NCBI GenBank assembly: GCA_020072805.1
Contig: JAIQGC010000024.1
Location: 1-47,568 of the forward strand
Source: Terriglobia bacterium
GTDB lineage: Bacteria > Acidobacteriota > Terriglobia > Acidiferrales > UBA7541
Direction of reading: 5' to 3'
DNA: 47,568 nt
Shown: piece after piece, positions 39,506 through 45,467 of the stretch
Position numbering within the stretch: the first letter of the stretch is position 1
How the letters are laid out: each line of letters starts with the position of its first letter
Position numbers and translations under genes: made by a program
Notes under the pieces: model-generated
What the model saw: only the letters and a program-made list of their open reading frames with translations
Told to the model about the DNA's origin: nothing
The model's database searches: none

Positions 39506-40705
39506 GTGCCCGTCGGAACCGCATTCCACGAAAGAACTCTCGCCCTCTGCGAAAGCCTCAACTACCGCGAATGGTCCGGCTATTACACCGTCAGCGTCTA
39601 CGAGATGCACCACGAGCACGAATACAACGCCATCCGCAACTCCGCGGCCCTCATTGATATCTCCCCGCTCTTCAAATACCGCGTCAGCGGCCGCGACGCC
39701 ACCCGCTTCGTCAACCGCGTCATCACCCGCGACATTCGCAAAGTCGCCGTCGGCCAGGTTATCTATTGCTGCTGGTGCGATCCCGATGGCAAAGTCATCG
39801 ACGACGGCACCATCACCCGCATCGCCGAAAACGAATACCGCTGGACCGCCGCCGACCCCAGCCTGCGCTGGCTCCGCCAGAACGCTCTCGGCCTCGACGT
39901 CGCCATCGAAGACGTCTCCGAAACCGTCGCCTCCCTGGCCCTGCAAGGCCCAACCTCCGGCCGCCTGCTCATGGCCGCCGCCGAAGCCGATATCGCCAAC
40001 CTCAAATATTTCCGCATGACCCAGGGCAAAATCGCCGGCGTTCCCGTGGACATCTCCCGCACCGGCTACACCGGTGACCTCGGCTTCGAGATCTGGATGC
40101 CCTGGAAGGACGCCGTAAAAGTCTGGGACGAACTGGTAGCCAAAGGCAAAGCCTTCGACATTCACCCTGCGGGAATGCTCGCTCTCGATATCGCCCGCAT
40201 CGAAGCCGGCCTGATCATGATCGAAGTGGACTACACCTCCAGCAAGAAAGCCCTCATCGATTCGCAGAAATATTCCCCCGCGGAACTCAGCTTCGCCAAA
40301 ATGGTGGATCTGAAAAAGGACAACTTCGTGGGCCGCGAAGCCCTCCTGCGCGAAGAAGTCACCGGAGCGCCCCGCGCGCTGGTCGGACTGGAAATCGACT
40401 GGACCGACGTGGAAGAACGCTACGAAAAACTAGGCCTGGCCCCGCAAGTGCCCTCGACCGCCTCGCGCACTGCCGTTCCTGTCTACCGCAACGGCAAGCA
40501 GGCCGGCAAAGCCACTTCTACCACCTGGTCGCCCACGCTCAAGAAAATGATCGCCCTCGCCAGCGTGGACCACGCCCATTCCAACCCCGGCACGATCCTG
40601 GAAATGGAACTCACCGTCGAAGCCGTCCGTCACTCTGTCGCCGCCAAAATCGTTCCGCTCCCCTTCTTCAACCCTAAGCGCAAAACGGCGGTGCCCATCA
40701 CGTAA
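39506..40705 (+). CDS. GcvT-like aminomethyltransferase family protein
   Basis: A 399-aa tetrahydrofolate-dependent enzyme of the glycine cleavage T-protein family. The start is GTG 39506, five bases after AGGAGG; upstream codons in this frame lack coding character. Recognisable parts are HHEHEYNAIRNSAALIDISP near 28-47, the folate-binding ISRTGYTGDLGFEIW, MLALDIARIEAGLIMIEVDY and the C-terminal barrel NNFVGREALL-type segment (DNFVGREALLREE). No gcvH or gcvP genes are near, so it may be a stand-alone demethylase or transferase (DmdA or sarcosine type) rather than part of glycine cleavage. A short sequence like its C-terminus reappears at 43395-43442. Confidence 0.88.
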   Translation: MPVGTAFHERTLALCESLNYREWSGYYTVSVYEMHHEHEYNAIRNSAALIDISPLFKYRVSGRDATRFVNRVITRDIRKVAVGQVIYCCWCDPDGKVIDDGTITRIAENEYRWTAADPSLRWLRQNALGLDVAIEDVSETVASLALQGPTSGRLLMAAAEADIANLKYFRMTQGKIAGVPVDISRTGYTGDLGFEIWMPWKDAVKVWDELVAKGKAFDIHPAGMLALDIARIEAGLIMIEVDYTSSKKALIDSQKYSPAELSFAKMVDLKKDNFVGREALLREEVTGAPRALVGLEIDWTDVEERYEKLGLAPQVPSTASRTAVPVYRNGKQAGKATSTTWSPTLKKMIALASVDHAHSNPGTILEMELTVEAVRHSVAAKIVPLPFFNPKRKTAVPIT

Positions 40706-40747
40706 AATAATGCCTATGAAACCAGACAAAAGCGCCCACTGTTGCAG

Positions 40748-40763
40748 TGTGATACGAATCACA
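40748..40763. promoter_or_regulatory. CRP/FNR-type binding site upstream of the sortase operon
   Basis: TGTGATACGAATCACA matches the Escherichia coli CRP consensus TGTGA-N6-TCACA in all ten conserved positions. Its centre (40755.5) is about 40 bases before the likely transcription start near 40796, the position of a class II activator site. No regulator gene is encoded in the window. Confidence 0.6.
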
Positions 40764-40783
40764 GATTTATACATTGCAAAAAA

Positions 40784-40789
40784 TATACA
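40784..40789 (+). promoter_or_regulatory. -10 box of the sortase operon promoter
   Basis: TATACA lies 20 bases after the CRP/FNR-like palindrome. The region 17 bases upstream (ACAGAT) is a poor -35 box, as expected for an activator-dependent promoter. Start of transcription is inferred near 40796. Confidence 0.45.
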
Positions 40790-40799
40790 CTTCCTCTGT

Positions 40800-40892
40800 A
40801 AAGACCGGACCTCGCAACGAGGGCTCGTGGCATCGGAGTGCCCCTATCGAGTGCCCCGCTAACTACCCAATGGTTGATACGGTCCGGCCTTT
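40800..40892 (+). ncRNA. Possible structured leader RNA of the sortase operon
   Basis: The ends AAAGACCGGACC (40800-40811) and GGTCCGGCCTTT (40881-40892) pair over 11 of 12 positions and close a loop of about 70 bases. Inside, CCTCG-CAA-CGAGG (40810-40822) forms a small stem-loop, and GGCATCGGAGTGCC can form another. The closing helix ends right before the ribosome site GAGGAG (40893-40898), so folding could control translation. It does not match any riboswitch consensus I can recall. Confidence 0.45.
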
Positions 40893-40907
40893 GAGGAGAA
40901 TTTAAAA

Positions 40908-41579
40908 ATGCGTTTCCTGAAGACTGTATCCATCGCAATTGCTTTTTCTCTGCTTGTCGGCATGTTTTTCGTCTCCGCCCGCGCGGACCAATGGAACAAG
41001 AAAACCATCCTTACTTTCAACCAGCCAATTGAAGTCCCCGGTAAAGTACTTCCCGCGGGGACTTACATGTTTAAACTCTTCGACTCCGCTTCCTACCGGC
41101 ATATCGTGCAAATCTGGAACGAAGACGGAACACAATTAATTACGACCGTCCTCGCGATTCCCAATTACCGGCTGGAACCGACTGGCGAGAACGTAATGAA
41201 GTTCGGTGAGATGCCCGGCGAAGCACCAAGCACGCTGCGGGCCTGGTTTTATCCGGGCGACAACTTTGGACAGGAATTTGTCTATCCGAAGCCCAGAGCT
41301 ATCGAATTGGCCGCGGCCTCGAAGGTAATCGTGCCGGCAGAAACCGTAATCCCCAGTGAAAAGACTTTGACCACGGTACCGCTCATCGCAATTACGCCGG
41401 AAAAGAAGGAAGAACCGGTTACCGAAGCGATTCAGACTCTGCCGCTGACCGCACGGGCAACCAGCACAGCAAAAGAACTACCAACGACCGGCAGTCCGAT
41501 TCCACTGATCGGATTGCTGGGCATACTCCTCGTCGGAGCAGGTTTCGGACTGAAACTGCTGGCCAAACAATTTTCATAA
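40908..41579 (+). CDS. Secreted LPXTG-type protein, probable sortase substrate
   Basis: A 223-aa product with a signal peptide (about 1-26, cleavage near ARADQ). A beta-rich domain follows (about 27-135; TFNQPIEVPGKVLPAGTYMF, then LRAWFYPGDNFGQEFVYPKP), a type common among secreted acidobacterial proteins. Next comes a Thr/Pro/Glu-rich linker (140-190). The C-terminus is a textbook cell-wall sorting signal: LPTTG (191-195), a hydrophobic stretch (197-215) and a basic end (KLLAKQFS). A sortase gene lies in the same operon. What the protein is joined to in a diderm cell is unknown. Start ATG 40908 follows GAGGAG by nine bases. Confidence 0.88.
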   Translation: MRFLKTVSIAIAFSLLVGMFFVSARADQWNKKTILTFNQPIEVPGKVLPAGTYMFKLFDSASYRHIVQIWNEDGTQLITTVLAIPNYRLEPTGENVMKFGEMPGEAPSTLRAWFYPGDNFGQEFVYPKPRAIELAAASKVIVPAETVIPSEKTLTTVPLIAITPEKKEEPVTEAIQTLPLTARATSTAKELPTTGSPIPLIGLLGILLVGAGFGLKLLAKQFS

Positions 41580-41595
41580 AGTGAAGCAGGCCATT

Positions 41596-41639
41596 CGGGC
41601 CGCGCCCCTGGCGTTTTTTTCATGCCGCGGCGCGGCCCG
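41596..41639 (+). promoter_or_regulatory. Intercistronic hairpin between substrate and VWFA/sortase genes
   Basis: A perfect 11-bp GC-rich inverted repeat (CGGGCCGCGCC at 41596-41606 and GGCGCGGCCCG at 41629-41639) with a 22-base loop that includes seven T. It ends one base before the GGAGG ribosome site (41641-41645) of the VWFA gene. It could protect the upstream message from 3' decay, reduce translation of the enzymes, or cause partial termination. Confidence 0.6.
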
Positions 41640-41653
41640 CGGAGGTCCCTCGC

Positions 41654-42631
41654 ATGAATCTTCGCCACGGACAACTCTCCGGGATCTATCTTCCGCCTGC
41701 GCTTCTGATTCTTTTCCTCGCCTTCGCCGCGCTGCGGATTGCGCATGCGTTCCCGGTTTTGCGGATTTCGCAGCAGGCGACAATTACTGTCCGCACGAAT
41801 CTTGTCGTGCTTCCCGTTAGTGTGACGGATTCGAAAGGCGAATTTGTTTCCGGGCTGAAGGCGGAGAATTTTCATGTTCTAGAAAGCGGCAGGCCGCAGA
41901 GAATCATCCTATTCGCGGACGAAGATATTCCGGTGACCGTGGGCTTGCTCGTGGACCACAGCCGCAGCATGGGTCCGAAGCTGTCTGACGTGAGCACAGC
42001 CGTATCCACATTTGCGCATTCCAGCAACCCCGAGGACGAGATGTTCGTCGTGGATTTCAGCGACGCGGTGAGCATCGAATCGTTCGACGGAAAGGCATTT
42101 ACGAGCGACCGCAAAGCCCTGGAAAGAGCCGTCTCGGCAGTATCGGCGCGGGGACGGACGGCATTGTATGACGCGGTGGCTGCAGGATTGAAGCACCTGG
42201 AACTGGGCAAGCATGAAAAGAAGGCGCTCATTCTGGTAAGCGATGGCGGCGACAATGCCAGCCATCTTGGATACAAGGACGTATTAACGCAGGCGCGGCA
42301 AGCGCGCGCGGTGATTTATTCGATCGCCTTGGCGGGGGACTCTCTGGAAGAAGAGAACCCGCGGGCCCTGGAAAAGCTGTGCAAAGAGAGCGGCGGGATC
42401 GCGTTTTCTCCACGCGCCGGGCAGAACATTTCCGGGATCGCCAAAGAAATAGCCCGTGATCTTCGCGAACAATACACGCTGGGCTATGCGCCCGAAATGG
42501 GAATCAAAGGCGAGTCCTTTCGAAAGGTCACGGTCCGAGTGACTGCTCCGGGTCGCGGCAAGGTCCGGGTGCGAACGCGGGCCGGCTATTCCCTGGCGCA
42601 GGAAAATTCGCCGCCGCGCCAATCCAATTGA
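41654..42631 (+). CDS. VWFA-domain secreted protein of the sortase operon
   Basis: A 325-aa product with a signal peptide (hydrophobic 12-32). A short beta domain (TNLVVLPVSVTDSKGEFVSG, the usual start of the acidobacterial VWFA family) precedes a von Willebrand A domain with the metal-site motif DHSRS (about 100-104), the Thr in ARGRTALYDA and the Asp in LVSDGGDN. The domain binds a divalent ion and usually another protein. The gene has its own ribosome site and precedes the sortase by eight bases. In proteobacterial dedicated sortase systems a VWA protein is itself the LPXTG substrate. Here it lacks a sorting signal, and the LPTTG motif is on the small secreted protein. Confidence 0.88.
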   Translation: MNLRHGQLSGIYLPPALLILFLAFAALRIAHAFPVLRISQQATITVRTNLVVLPVSVTDSKGEFVSGLKAENFHVLESGRPQRIILFADEDIPVTVGLLVDHSRSMGPKLSDVSTAVSTFAHSSNPEDEMFVVDFSDAVSIESFDGKAFTSDRKALERAVSAVSARGRTALYDAVAAGLKHLELGKHEKKALILVSDGGDNASHLGYKDVLTQARQARAVIYSIALAGDSLEEENPRALEKLCKESGGIAFSPRAGQNISGIAKEIARDLREQYTLGYAPEMGIKGESFRKVTVRVTAPGRGKVRVRTRAGYSLAQENSPPRQSN

Positions 42632-42639
42632 GGCCGTCA

Positions 42640-43248
42640 ATGAACACGGTCAAAAGCAGGCCGGAGGGGACGCGCAGATTATTTTTCAACGGTCTTTGCT
42701 GGATATCCTCTTGTTTTCTTTTGGCGGGAATTCTCGCCTCGAGTTATGCCGGTTATGTTCTCGTGGACGGGCAAGTTTTTCAGGCGATGGCGCTGCGCAA
42801 ATTCGCTCATCGCGCACCGCTCGCAGAACCGCACCTACAAACGCCAGGCGAGATTGTCGGGCAACTGGAAATACCGAGCGTGGAACTTCGGGTTGTGGTC
42901 ATTCACGGAGATTCGCCCGAGGTCTTGCGGCGAGGGGCGGGACACCTGCCTGATTCACCGCTGCCAGGGGAATGGGGCAACGTGGCAGTCGCAGGCCATC
43001 GCGACACTTTTTTTCGGCCGCTGCGCCAGATTCGAATTGGGGATGTCATCACCCTCGAGACCAACAGCGGGTTGTATCGATATCGAGTGGAATCAACCGG
43101 CGTCGTGCCACCGGGGAACGTAGAGGTCCTGCGGTCCTCGAATCGGCGCGAACTGACTCTGATCACTTGCTTCCCGTTTGATTATATCGGCCCGGCGCCA
43201 GACCGCTTCATCGTTCGGGCGGTTGAAGTTGAAGCGTCGCCGGAATGA
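42640..43248 (+). CDS. Sortase (class D-like transpeptidase)
   Basis: A 202-aa membrane-anchored Cys transpeptidase that cuts LPXTG between Thr and Gly and joins the substrate to an amine. It has one N-terminal helix (about 18-42) and an exported sortase barrel. The catalytic triad is visible: His120 in AVAGHRDTFF, Cys177 in TLITCFPF and Arg189 in APDRFIV. The N-terminal family pattern GQLEIPSVELRVVV is also present. ATG 42640 is chosen, with TGAGG six bases upstream; a TTG at 42628 overlaps the VWFA stop. Its most obvious substrate is the LPTTG protein two genes upstream. This is a rare setting, since sortases are mostly Gram-positive enzymes. Confidence 0.92.
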   Translation: MNTVKSRPEGTRRLFFNGLCWISSCFLLAGILASSYAGYVLVDGQVFQAMALRKFAHRAPLAEPHLQTPGEIVGQLEIPSVELRVVVIHGDSPEVLRRGAGHLPDSPLPGEWGNVAVAGHRDTFFRPLRQIRIGDVITLETNSGLYRYRVESTGVVPPGNVEVLRSSNRRELTLITCFPFDYIGPAPDRFIVRAVEVEASPE

Positions 43249-43283
43249 GGCACGGAGAACTTACGGGCGGGAGATTGGGACCA

Positions 43284-43418
43284 GGGGGCGAGGCGATTGT
43301 ATTTCTTGAGGACGGCGCGGAGTTTAGCGTGGAGGAGGGCAATGACTCGCTGGTTTTCAATGCCCGTAATCGTCTCCGTCACAATCATGCCACTCCCTTC
43401 TTCAATCCGGGCAAACAA
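43284..43418 (-). pseudogene. Remnant of a P1-family peptidase C-terminus
   Basis: On the minus strand these codons read TETITGIENQRVIALLHAKL and RAVLKKYNRLAP, nearly the same as the C-terminus of the intact peptidase at 44256-45467 (AETMTGIENHRVIALPHDKL). DNA identity is high over about 100 bases. The stop of the intact gene (TAG) is TGG here, so the frame runs on towards 43182. Only about 35-45 codons remain, with no start or catalytic part. Confidence 0.8.
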
Positions 43419-44255: not shown

Positions 44256-45467
44256 CTAGGGGGCGAGGCGATTGTATTTCTTGAGGACGGCGCGGAGTTT
44301 GTCGTGGGGCAAGGCAATGACGCGATGGTTCTCGATGCCTGTCATCGTCTCCGCCGCGACCATGGCGTTGACGACGGACTCCTCGACGGCCTCGACCGTG
44401 GCCTGAAATACGGGATCCATGCGGTCGTTCGGCAGCATGGTAAGAGTGGCCAGCCCCTCGGAGTTCACCGCGCCGGGATTGGCCGTCGAAAAAGCGATAA
44501 AAATGTCGCCGGAACCATTGCCGGAGATGCTTCCGTTGCGCCCCAGCCCCAGCGAAACGCGCCGCGCCAAACGCTTGAGTTGGTGCGAGAGCAGCGGCGC
44601 ATCCGTGGCGATAATCACGATGATCGAGCCACGGTCCAGTTCGTCAAAATGGCCGGAAGCGTAGGCGGGATCTTCAGGAATCTCCTTGCCGACTGGCACG
44701 CCGGCGATGCGCAGATTGGGCCGCACGCCGTAGTTGCATTGCACCAGAACGCCAACGGTGTAGCCGCCGTCCTTCGCGGAGAGTTTTCGCGATGAAGTGC
44801 CGATGCCGCCCTTGAATTCGTTGCATACCATGCCTGTGCCACCGCCGACATTGCCTTCGGCCACCGGGCCGGAGCTGGCGGAATCGATGGCGCGAAAAAC
44901 GTGCTCGGGCTTCACGTGGAAGCCGTTTATGTCGTTGAGCCAGCCGTCCCAGGTTTCAGCGACAACAGGAAGCGACCACCAATAGCCGGTGGGATCGGGC
45001 TGGCCGTGGGTGACGCGCCACTGGATGACGGCGTCGCGGACGACGCCGACGCTGTGAGTGTTGGTGATCATCACCGGGCCTTCGAGGAAGCCGGACTCCT
45101 CGACCCAGGCCGTTCCGGTCATTTCCCCGTTGCCATTCTGCGAAAACCACCCGGCAAAGACGGGGCTCATCATCGTGTCCTTGCCGCGCGGCAGTACCGC
45201 CGTGACGCCCGTGCGCACGGGCCCCTTGCCGACAACCAACTTCCCTTCCCCGGAGATGAGTGTGACGTGGCCGACGGTGACGCCGGCGACGTCGGTGATG
45301 GCGTTGAGCGGGCCTGGGGCGCCGTCAAAGGGAACGCCCAGCTCCCGCGCCCGCGGTTTATGGGGGGAGTCCTGCGCGGCGGCGGCAAGCGGCAGTGCCG
45401 CGGCGAAAATAATTGCGAGAGTGCTGCGGTTACGGTTTTTCTTTTGGCTTTTCGTTTTTGGGTGCAT
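44256..45467 (-). CDS. P1-family aminopeptidase (DmpA/BapA-like), exported
   Basis: A 403-aa N-terminal-nucleophile peptidase of the DmpA/beta-peptidyl aminopeptidase family. The precursor cleaves itself into two chains at a Gly-Ser bond. I place this at Gly280-Ser281 in DRGSIIVIIATDAPL, with support from GNGSGDIFIAFSTANPG further on. A basic N-terminus and signal peptide (cleavage near AAAQ, residue 32) indicate export. The start, ATG 45467, lies 38 bases inside the M28 peptidase gene upstream, so the two are co-translated. Family enzymes release D-Ala, beta-amino acids or N-terminal residues. A decayed copy of its C-terminus occurs at 43284-43418. Confidence 0.9.
   Translation of the reverse strand: MHPKTKSQKKNRNRSTLAIIFAAALPLAAAAQDSPHKPRARELGVPFDGAPGPLNAITDVAGVTVGHVTLISGEGKLVVGKGPVRTGVTAVLPRGKDTMMSPVFAGWFSQNGNGEMTGTAWVEESGFLEGPVMITNTHSVGVVRDAVIQWRVTHGQPDPTGYWWSLPVVAETWDGWLNDINGFHVKPEHVFRAIDSASSGPVAEGNVGGGTGMVCNEFKGGIGTSSRKLSAKDGGYTVGVLVQCNYGVRPNLRIAGVPVGKEIPEDPAYASGHFDELDRGSIIVIIATDAPLLSHQLKRLARRVSLGLGRNGSISGNGSGDIFIAFSTANPGAVNSEGLATLTMLPNDRMDPVFQATVEAVEESVVNAMVAAETMTGIENHRVIALPHDKLRAVLKKYNRLAP

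Follow-up and report, generated by a model that had tools for sequence, protein, structure and literature searches.

The 47,568-nucleotide stretch of contig JAIQGC010000024.1 analysed here (Terriglobia bacterium, assembly GCA_020072805.1; hereafter the window) carries three plus-strand genes at positions 40908-43248, which encode a secreted-looking protein with a C-terminal sorting tail, a VWFA protein of the family TIGR03436 and an intact sortase. The presumed substrate protein of this cassette is termed SUB. The cassette is a real dedicated sortase-substrate system that recurs in Acidobacteriota, "dedicated" being the term used for an enzyme paired with one target (PMC3237569). The window sortase and SUB very probably form a cognate pair.

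The pair is called dedicated because the host genome (G000; 3.98 Mb, 157 contigs, 99.77% complete) contains one sortase, one SUB and one match to the tail profile. The sortase is the single PF04203 match, SUB is accompanied by one further weak match at E 0.15, and the tail profile, which was built with the window SUB tail included and which tails of another type would escape, picked out SUB (E 4.2e-17) as the sole match at E <= 10 from 50 candidates. The single sortase and the single tail-bearing protein are adjacent. The genome of this soil bacterium also codes for the outer-membrane markers BamA (462.7 bits) and LptD (71.3 bits) and is therefore counted as diderm.

An earlier note on this DNA had described three adjacent plus-strand genes, for an LPTTG-tailed secreted-looking protein, a VWFA protein and a sortase, as a self-contained pair of substrate and enzyme in a diderm. 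All three genes are present by sequence, the pairing holds in the host genome, and the search for other C-terminal LPXTG signals that the note had proposed yielded no second tail. The note's span of 40748-43248 opens with a CRP-like palindrome; coding begins at 40908. A description of this system was not found in the open-access literature searched, to which subscription papers and preprints mostly did not belong.

SUB, its sorting tail and the sortase

SUB (40908..41579, plus strand; 223 residues) starts with a signal-peptide-like helix at residues 2-29, the hydrophobic segment having been judged by eye. A beta domain (residues ~30-127) that ends in EFVYPK is followed by a helix (128-137), a low-confidence linker (~144-198) and a tail consisting of ELPTTGS, a hydrophobic helix and basic residues. 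The C-terminal sorting signal maps to 41478..41576 on the plus strand, with LPTTG at 41478-41492 ahead of the hydrophobic stretch and the basic end; the C-terminus of SUB reads KELPTTGSPIPLIGLLGILLVGAGFGLKLLAKQFS and the tail sequence ELPTTGSPIPLIGLLGILLVGAGFGLKLLAKQFS.

The structure model of SUB is of low confidence (mean pLDDT 57), and the predictions for SUB and the sortase used shallow alignments of 10 and 11 rows. Compared with solved folds, the SUB model gave nothing at E <= 0.001 in Foldseek and a best Z of 4.6 over 45 residues in VIA-align; for a model of this quality, the missing match should not be taken as evidence of a new fold. DUF2911 (PF11138) aligns with SUB at E 0.01 and scores 16.1 of the 27 bits needed, i.e., under the cut-off.

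The sortase gene (42640..43248, plus strand) starts with an ATG at 42640, an alternative TTG at 42628 being possible, and codes for 202 residues that comprise an N-terminal helix (~9-57), the presumed membrane anchor, and a catalytic beta-barrel (72-201) with H120, C177 and R189. The protein belongs to the sortase superfamily (PF04203, 105.3 bits against a cut-off of 26.6, E 2.4e-30). The three catalytic residues, which the earlier note had named, are intact in the window protein, invariant in a 10-row sortase alignment and all kept in 127 of 129 profile-aligned sortases, some of these rows being near-duplicates. Two relatives appear to be damaged: a sortase of the same-genus genome G412 (L235:5019-5645) is without the aligned Arg and occurs with a short VWFA protein and no SUB found, perhaps as a decaying cassette, and the sortase of Granulicella sp. 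L60 (L015:5800-6500) is apparently broken.

Recurrence in Acidobacteriota and departures from strict pairing

Among 396 acidobacteriotal genomes searched at a sortase threshold of E <= 1e-6, 81 contain a sortase match, at least 50 a match to the SUB profile and at least 46 both; at most seven candidates per genome were scored, and SUB relatives are thus undercounted. A sortase match therefore accompanies 46 of the 50 genomes with a SUB-profile match, and the co-occurrence on which the earlier note had staked its claim is borne out. The SUB profile includes the tail, and four genomes (G062, G068, G145 and G318) match it by tail and linker alone; dropping these four leaves 42 of 46. A SUB-profile match without a sortase match occurs in four genomes, G116, G176, G229 and G383. 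The SUB relatives fetched from sortase-less genomes (L188, L189, L195 and L196) are without the tail, a fragment from G229 (L190) held no scored open reading frame (ORF), and the match in G383 is weak and outside the fetched set.

A scan of named genomes provided 12 loci, ten of which (L004-L013) hold an intact sortase; all ten carry a tailed SUB upstream of it, with or without a VWFA gene in between. L014, from Streptomyces, has a different sortase. One of the ten, L007 (CAJCHZ010000106.1), is labelled Betaproteobacteria and carries an acidobacterial cassette; the label is probably wrong.

These ten loci were combined with 99 of 107 sortase places, each fetched with up to ~5 kb on either side, into a set of 109 neighbourhoods. 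The eight other places comprise two partial matches in G137 and one place each in G000, G233, G337, G094, G163 and G103, four of these six lying on the same contigs as the named loci L008, L011, L012 and L013. The sortase has a tailed SUB in 42 neighbourhoods, another small tailed protein in 30, a VIT/VWA partner of the known class GN (see below) in 19, a tail-less SUB in one and no partner in 17. The automatic count was 40 (16 with VWFA), 30, 19, 1 and 19; inspection by eye moved L084 and L099 to the tailed SUBs and added a VWFA gene to L099 and L111. An adjacent small tailed protein hence occurs beside 72 of the 90 sortases that are not of GN type. The three-gene order, put forward in the earlier note as the unit, is rejected as an invariant: the VWFA gene is present in 18 of the 42 tailed-SUB loci (degenerate in one, L005), and another small tailed protein takes the place of SUB in 30 of the 109 neighbourhoods.

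Of the tailed partners at other loci, L154:2297-4432 includes a PG_binding_1 region (PF01471, E 2.6e-7) and L144:5146-5766 a weak SleB match (E 4e-4, far under the cut-off); both adjoin a sortase, are tailed and have no SUB domain. The partners at L117, L129 and L131 carry small unassigned domains, L117 with weak DUF5666/CusF matches under the cut-off, and in this group the ectodomain varies while the tail stays.

The 81 sortase-adjacent tails, pooled from SUB, other and GN loci, share a pattern: position 1 is L in 66 and M in 14, position 3 is variable (mostly K, Q, A, R or H), T occupies position 4 in 79, A (54) or G (27) position 5, and S position 6 in 61. As a rule, the tail reads LPxT[A/G]S, LPxTA is commoner than LPxTG in the relatives, and the LPTTGS of the window represents the minority G form. 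That the tail arose by chance beside unrelated neighbours is barely conceivable. LPXTG-like patterns are indeed common in the DNA of the host genome, yet the raw count (276 matches, TG form only, against 228 in the reversed control) is uninformative, and linkage as well as conservation of the tail across many loci speak against chance. Considering ORFs of at least 100 codons in the 109 neighbourhoods, a tail marks 81 of the 835 that adjoin a sortase, many of these 835 being shadow frames, against 6 of 2315 that do not, three of the six being SUB kin; the tail is therefore not a product of chance, and this explanation was rejected.

Several observations weigh against a strict pairing of enzyme and substrate. 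At L101:5149-5760, a SUB relative directly upstream of a sortase is without the tail, and a tailed SUB is present on a different contig of this genome (L180). This is the one exception among sortase-adjacent SUBs, and the earlier note's concern that relatives might lack the tail did not overturn its claim. Tailed SUBs also lie away from a sortase at L177 and L178 (same genome), L180, L183 and L184. All these genomes have a sortase elsewhere; L177, L178 and L184 show none within the fetched stretch of ~5 kb, and L183 is cut by a contig end. L098 carries a second tailed SUB on the opposite strand, and at L124 the tailed SUB and the sortase share a contig but are ~6 kb apart. Owing to these stray tailed SUBs, a one-to-one pairing is shown for the host genome only. 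The 17 partnerless neighbourhoods also count against the pairing. Four (L087, L106, L121 and L125) come from a short contig or from the end of a contig, and others do not; L124 is among the 17, as are L135 with the variant tail LPLAGT, L148 with a tailed overlapping ORF, and L153 and L165, whose sortases fall inside the GN branch of the tree described below. The curated LPXTG-anchor models (TIGR01167 / PF00746) were not listed for SUB at E <= 1, despite the presence of the motif, the hydrophobic stretch and the basic end.

Within the genus, a survey in which lower-scoring sortases were followed up in part found a sortase match in 25 of 61 genomes, the host included; among 35 other same-genus genomes, 17 have a match and 18 do not, which counts against the cassette reading. 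A tailed SUB stands beside the sortase in seven of the 35 (G401, G402, G404, G410, G415, G416 and G426), six of which keep a VWFA gene between the two, with a remnant in G415.

Known sortase systems and the fate of SUB

A close precedent is class GN (TIGR03784) with its "marine proteobacterial sortase target" (TIGR03788), in which diderms likewise encode a sortase next to a single tailed protein and which also occurs in Acidobacteriota (19 of the 109 loci). Rhizobium and Novosphingobium plasmid records annotate this system, in Novosphingobium with an adjoining response regulator. The window shares this layout, and its sortase obtains 98.2 bits on the GN model; yet the cut-off is 158.25, and membership of class GN is most unlikely. 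The tailed partner in class GN is a VIT/VWA protein of ~650-1000 residues, often with an LPQTAT- or QGGT-type tail, whereas in the window a small beta protein carries the tail, and the VWA domain, when present in such cassettes, is on a separate tail-less protein. The neighbour of the window sortase is a tail-less TIGR03436 protein; the earlier note had rightly set the signal-less VWFA protein apart from the VIT/VWA systems. Among the GN-type sortases scanned on TIGR03784, L158, L168 and L160 pass and L175 (129.5 bits) stays below the cut-off. TIGR03788 is matched by four large proteins that partner low-scoring sortases, with 503.8, 691.9, 513.1 and 522.4 bits; at a cut-off of 551.65 only the 691.9-bit protein passes, and all four possess VIT and VWA domains.

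A tree of 127 sortases, whose bootstrap had not settled, points in the same direction. Near-duplicates (L077, L078, L010, L011 and L012) and repeats (L224, L225, L226 and L228) were left out. All 19 GN-type sortases form one branch (100/98) with two proteobacterial GN references and two unassigned rows, and the window sortase groups outside it with L227 and L004 (100/100). Score, tree position and substrate all set the window system apart from class GN, and an assignment to that class was rejected on these grounds. The alignments also distinguish class GN from a second kind of acidobacterial sortase; the relative frequency of the two kinds is not readable from our counts, as members of the second kind supplied the search profile. 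One set of sortases whose partners are other small proteins is placed beside GN with weak support (97/62). SUB-partnered sortases do not form a single clade, the label requiring 15 changes against 39.5 for shuffled labels. In the literature searched, acidobacterial sortases surfaced only in one table row (Sortase, 6, for Candidatus Solibacter usitatus; PMC3174227).

By profile score, solved sequence and fold, the window sortase is nearest to the class D sortases of Bacillota. It obtains 134.5 bits on NF058671 (cut-off 140) and 126.6 on NF033746 (cut-off 165), thus missing both, while the relative L085 reaches 142.1 bits on NF058671. The nearest solved sequence is 2ln7 (B. anthracis SrtD, E 6.1e-20), and the fold nearest to the sortase model (pLDDT 81) is 4d70, Clostridium perfringens Sortase D (E 2.4e-14). 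In contrast to class D, the tail is LPTTGS and not the LPxTATN recognized in NF058671 systems, and the host is diderm. Class D membership is not claimed, since the five Gram-positive references of the tree form a group of their own with weak support (96/55).

Two unrelated systems offer parallels. L,D-transpeptidases attach Braun's lipoprotein, with a like outcome of an envelope protein covalently linked to peptidoglycan (PMC8263019); these enzymes are unrelated to sortases, and SUB differs by a cleavable C-terminal tail and by having no lipid anchor that we could see. Exosortase/PEP-CTERM and rhombosortase/GlyGly-CTERM also employ tripartite tails in Gram-negatives, and enzyme and target tend to adjoin when the target is single (PMC3237569); these enzymes are non-homologous to sortase.

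Sortases are best known from Gram-positive bacteria, and the question raised by the window is what they anchor proteins to in cells with an outer membrane. From the computed genes, tail, triad, linkage and co-occurrence, we infer a cleavage, an acceptor and a location, and favour with moderate confidence a wall-tethered periplasmic SUB made by a dedicated sortase-substrate cassette. After export, SUB would stay lodged in the inner membrane through its C-terminal helix, while the N-terminal helix of the sortase would anchor the enzyme with its catalytic domain in the periplasm. A substrate with a C-terminal stop helix and an anchored sortase provide the normal geometry for cleavage between Thr and Gly/Ala, and the sortase encoded in the adjacent gene may cleave LPTT^GS after the second Thr via an acyl-enzyme on C177. 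The new C-terminus of SUB would then be moved to an amine in the periplasm, for which the diaminopimelate side chain of lipid II or peptidoglycan is the likeliest candidate, yielding a small beta domain on a flexible linker that is tethered to the wall in the periplasm. The acceptor is probably peptidoglycan, and the simplest reading keeps SUB in the periplasm rather than on the surface. The wall-tethered product is favoured because lipid II/peptidoglycan is the nearest periplasmic amine and because L154 and L144 contain peptidoglycan-binding-type regions. Since the cassette comprises a single enzyme and a single small substrate and has relatives in culture (Edaphobacter and Granulicella strains), the nature of the acceptor is directly testable.

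A rather unlikely variant is cleavage without wall attachment, where the sortase frees SUB by hydrolysis or passes it on to a different envelope component (a lipid or polysaccharide, for instance), and SUB functions within the periplasm or travels further out, as proposed for exosortase/PEP-CTERM. The wall of a diderm is not the cell surface, and the existence of tail-less SUB relatives indicates that the domain can work untethered, both of which agree with release. Yet, sortases of the nearest classes transfer to amines, and wall-tethered proteins typically have a linker that separates domain and tail, which argues for attachment.

A quite improbable alternative to the wall-tethered SUB is a self-polymerising, pilin-like subunit, in which K128 of EFVYPK attacks the next acyl-enzyme to produce a covalent fibre, with the VWFA protein perhaps as a loosely attached tip adhesin. 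The cassette resembles the loci of sortase-assembled pili (class C, YPKN pilins) in its VYPK segment, its small sortase locus and a nearby vWFA protein. Class C pilus sortases possess an N-terminal lid with a motif of the D-P-aromatic type; in a simple motif search, DP[FWYL] occurred in 3 and was missing in 38 of 41 SUB-type sortases, and by reading it is missing in the window sortase as well. A Lys is found at the K128 position in 41 of 50 tailed SUBs (39 of 48 before L180 and L183 were counted as tailed) and, with L182 excluded because a contig end truncates it, in 3 of 15 without a tail. However, seven of the 15 have no residue at that column, which changes the ratio to 3 of 8, the tailed set holds near-duplicates, and R, E or Q replaces the Lys in 9 of the 50 tailed sequences, so that the Lys is not universal. 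EF[VI]Y also occurs in tail-less relatives and looks structural. The Gram-positive shaft pilins are joined through the YPKN lysine, and tip pilins carry vWFA domains (PMC5817068), whereas the cassette has one tailed protein, with a single beta domain, and a VWFA protein without a sorting signal. It is highly doubtful that a radiation of class D-like sortases, each with a small envelope partner and as yet undescribed, exists in Acidobacteriota and that its SUB type polymerises via the VYPK lysine; if true, a covalent SUB fibre or sheath would represent a polymer assembled by a sortase within or across the envelope of a Gram-negative bacterium.

The VWFA protein, non-coding elements and flanking DNA

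The VWFA protein (41654..42631, plus strand; 325 residues) matches acidobact_VWFA (TIGR03436) with 188.7 bits against a cut-off of 81.25 and has an N-terminal hydrophobic segment, a DxSxS motif (DHSRS) at residue 101 and no sorting signal. The host genome includes 13 TIGR03436 matches, 11 of them over the cut-off, and the protein is therefore one of a large family. As an optional partner, it may act as a secreted accessory in a subset of lineages.

The CRP-like palindrome TGTGA-N6-TCACA (40748..40763, no strand assigned) lies 145-160 nucleotides upstream of the SUB start and is a candidate regulator site. It is unlikely to occur by chance, with one exact match in the window against 0.01 expected, and imperfect versions are found upstream of SUB in L004 and L227. 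A riboswitch in the SUB leader was rejected: no Rfam family reached gathering level anywhere in the window, a search of 40600-41000 gave no match at E <= 5, and the leader fold is not exceptional (z-score -1.08; 31 of 200 shuffles as stable). An inverted repeat in the leader, CCGGACC...GGTCCGG, is seen in L004, not in L005-L007.

The 74-nucleotide gap between SUB and VWFA (41580..41653, plus strand) contains a GC-rich hairpin that holds a T run, a possible attenuator with a minimum free energy of -41.4 kcal/mol, and could lower the expression of VWFA and sortase compared with SUB. A strong hairpin is also present in five of ten relatives compared: the gaps of L007, L229, L231, L080 and L095 fold below -27, those of L004, L006, L227 and L230 at -12 or weaker, and the gap of L091 is too short to fold. 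Terminator-like matches occur at 41595 and 41602, the regional total of 6 against 3.9 (sd 1.7) in shuffles being not above chance.

Among the loci compared, the flanking genes gcvT and those for a P1-type peptidase and an M28 peptidase were matched only in L004/L225 (one genome) and L227; the cassette therefore sits in other contexts elsewhere. Downstream of the sortase, a 107-nucleotide direct repeat (86% identical) spans window positions 43283-43389 and 44258-44364, and the stretch 3' of the sortase resembles a degraded duplicate of the 3'-terminal part of the peptidase gene (44256-45467, minus strand).

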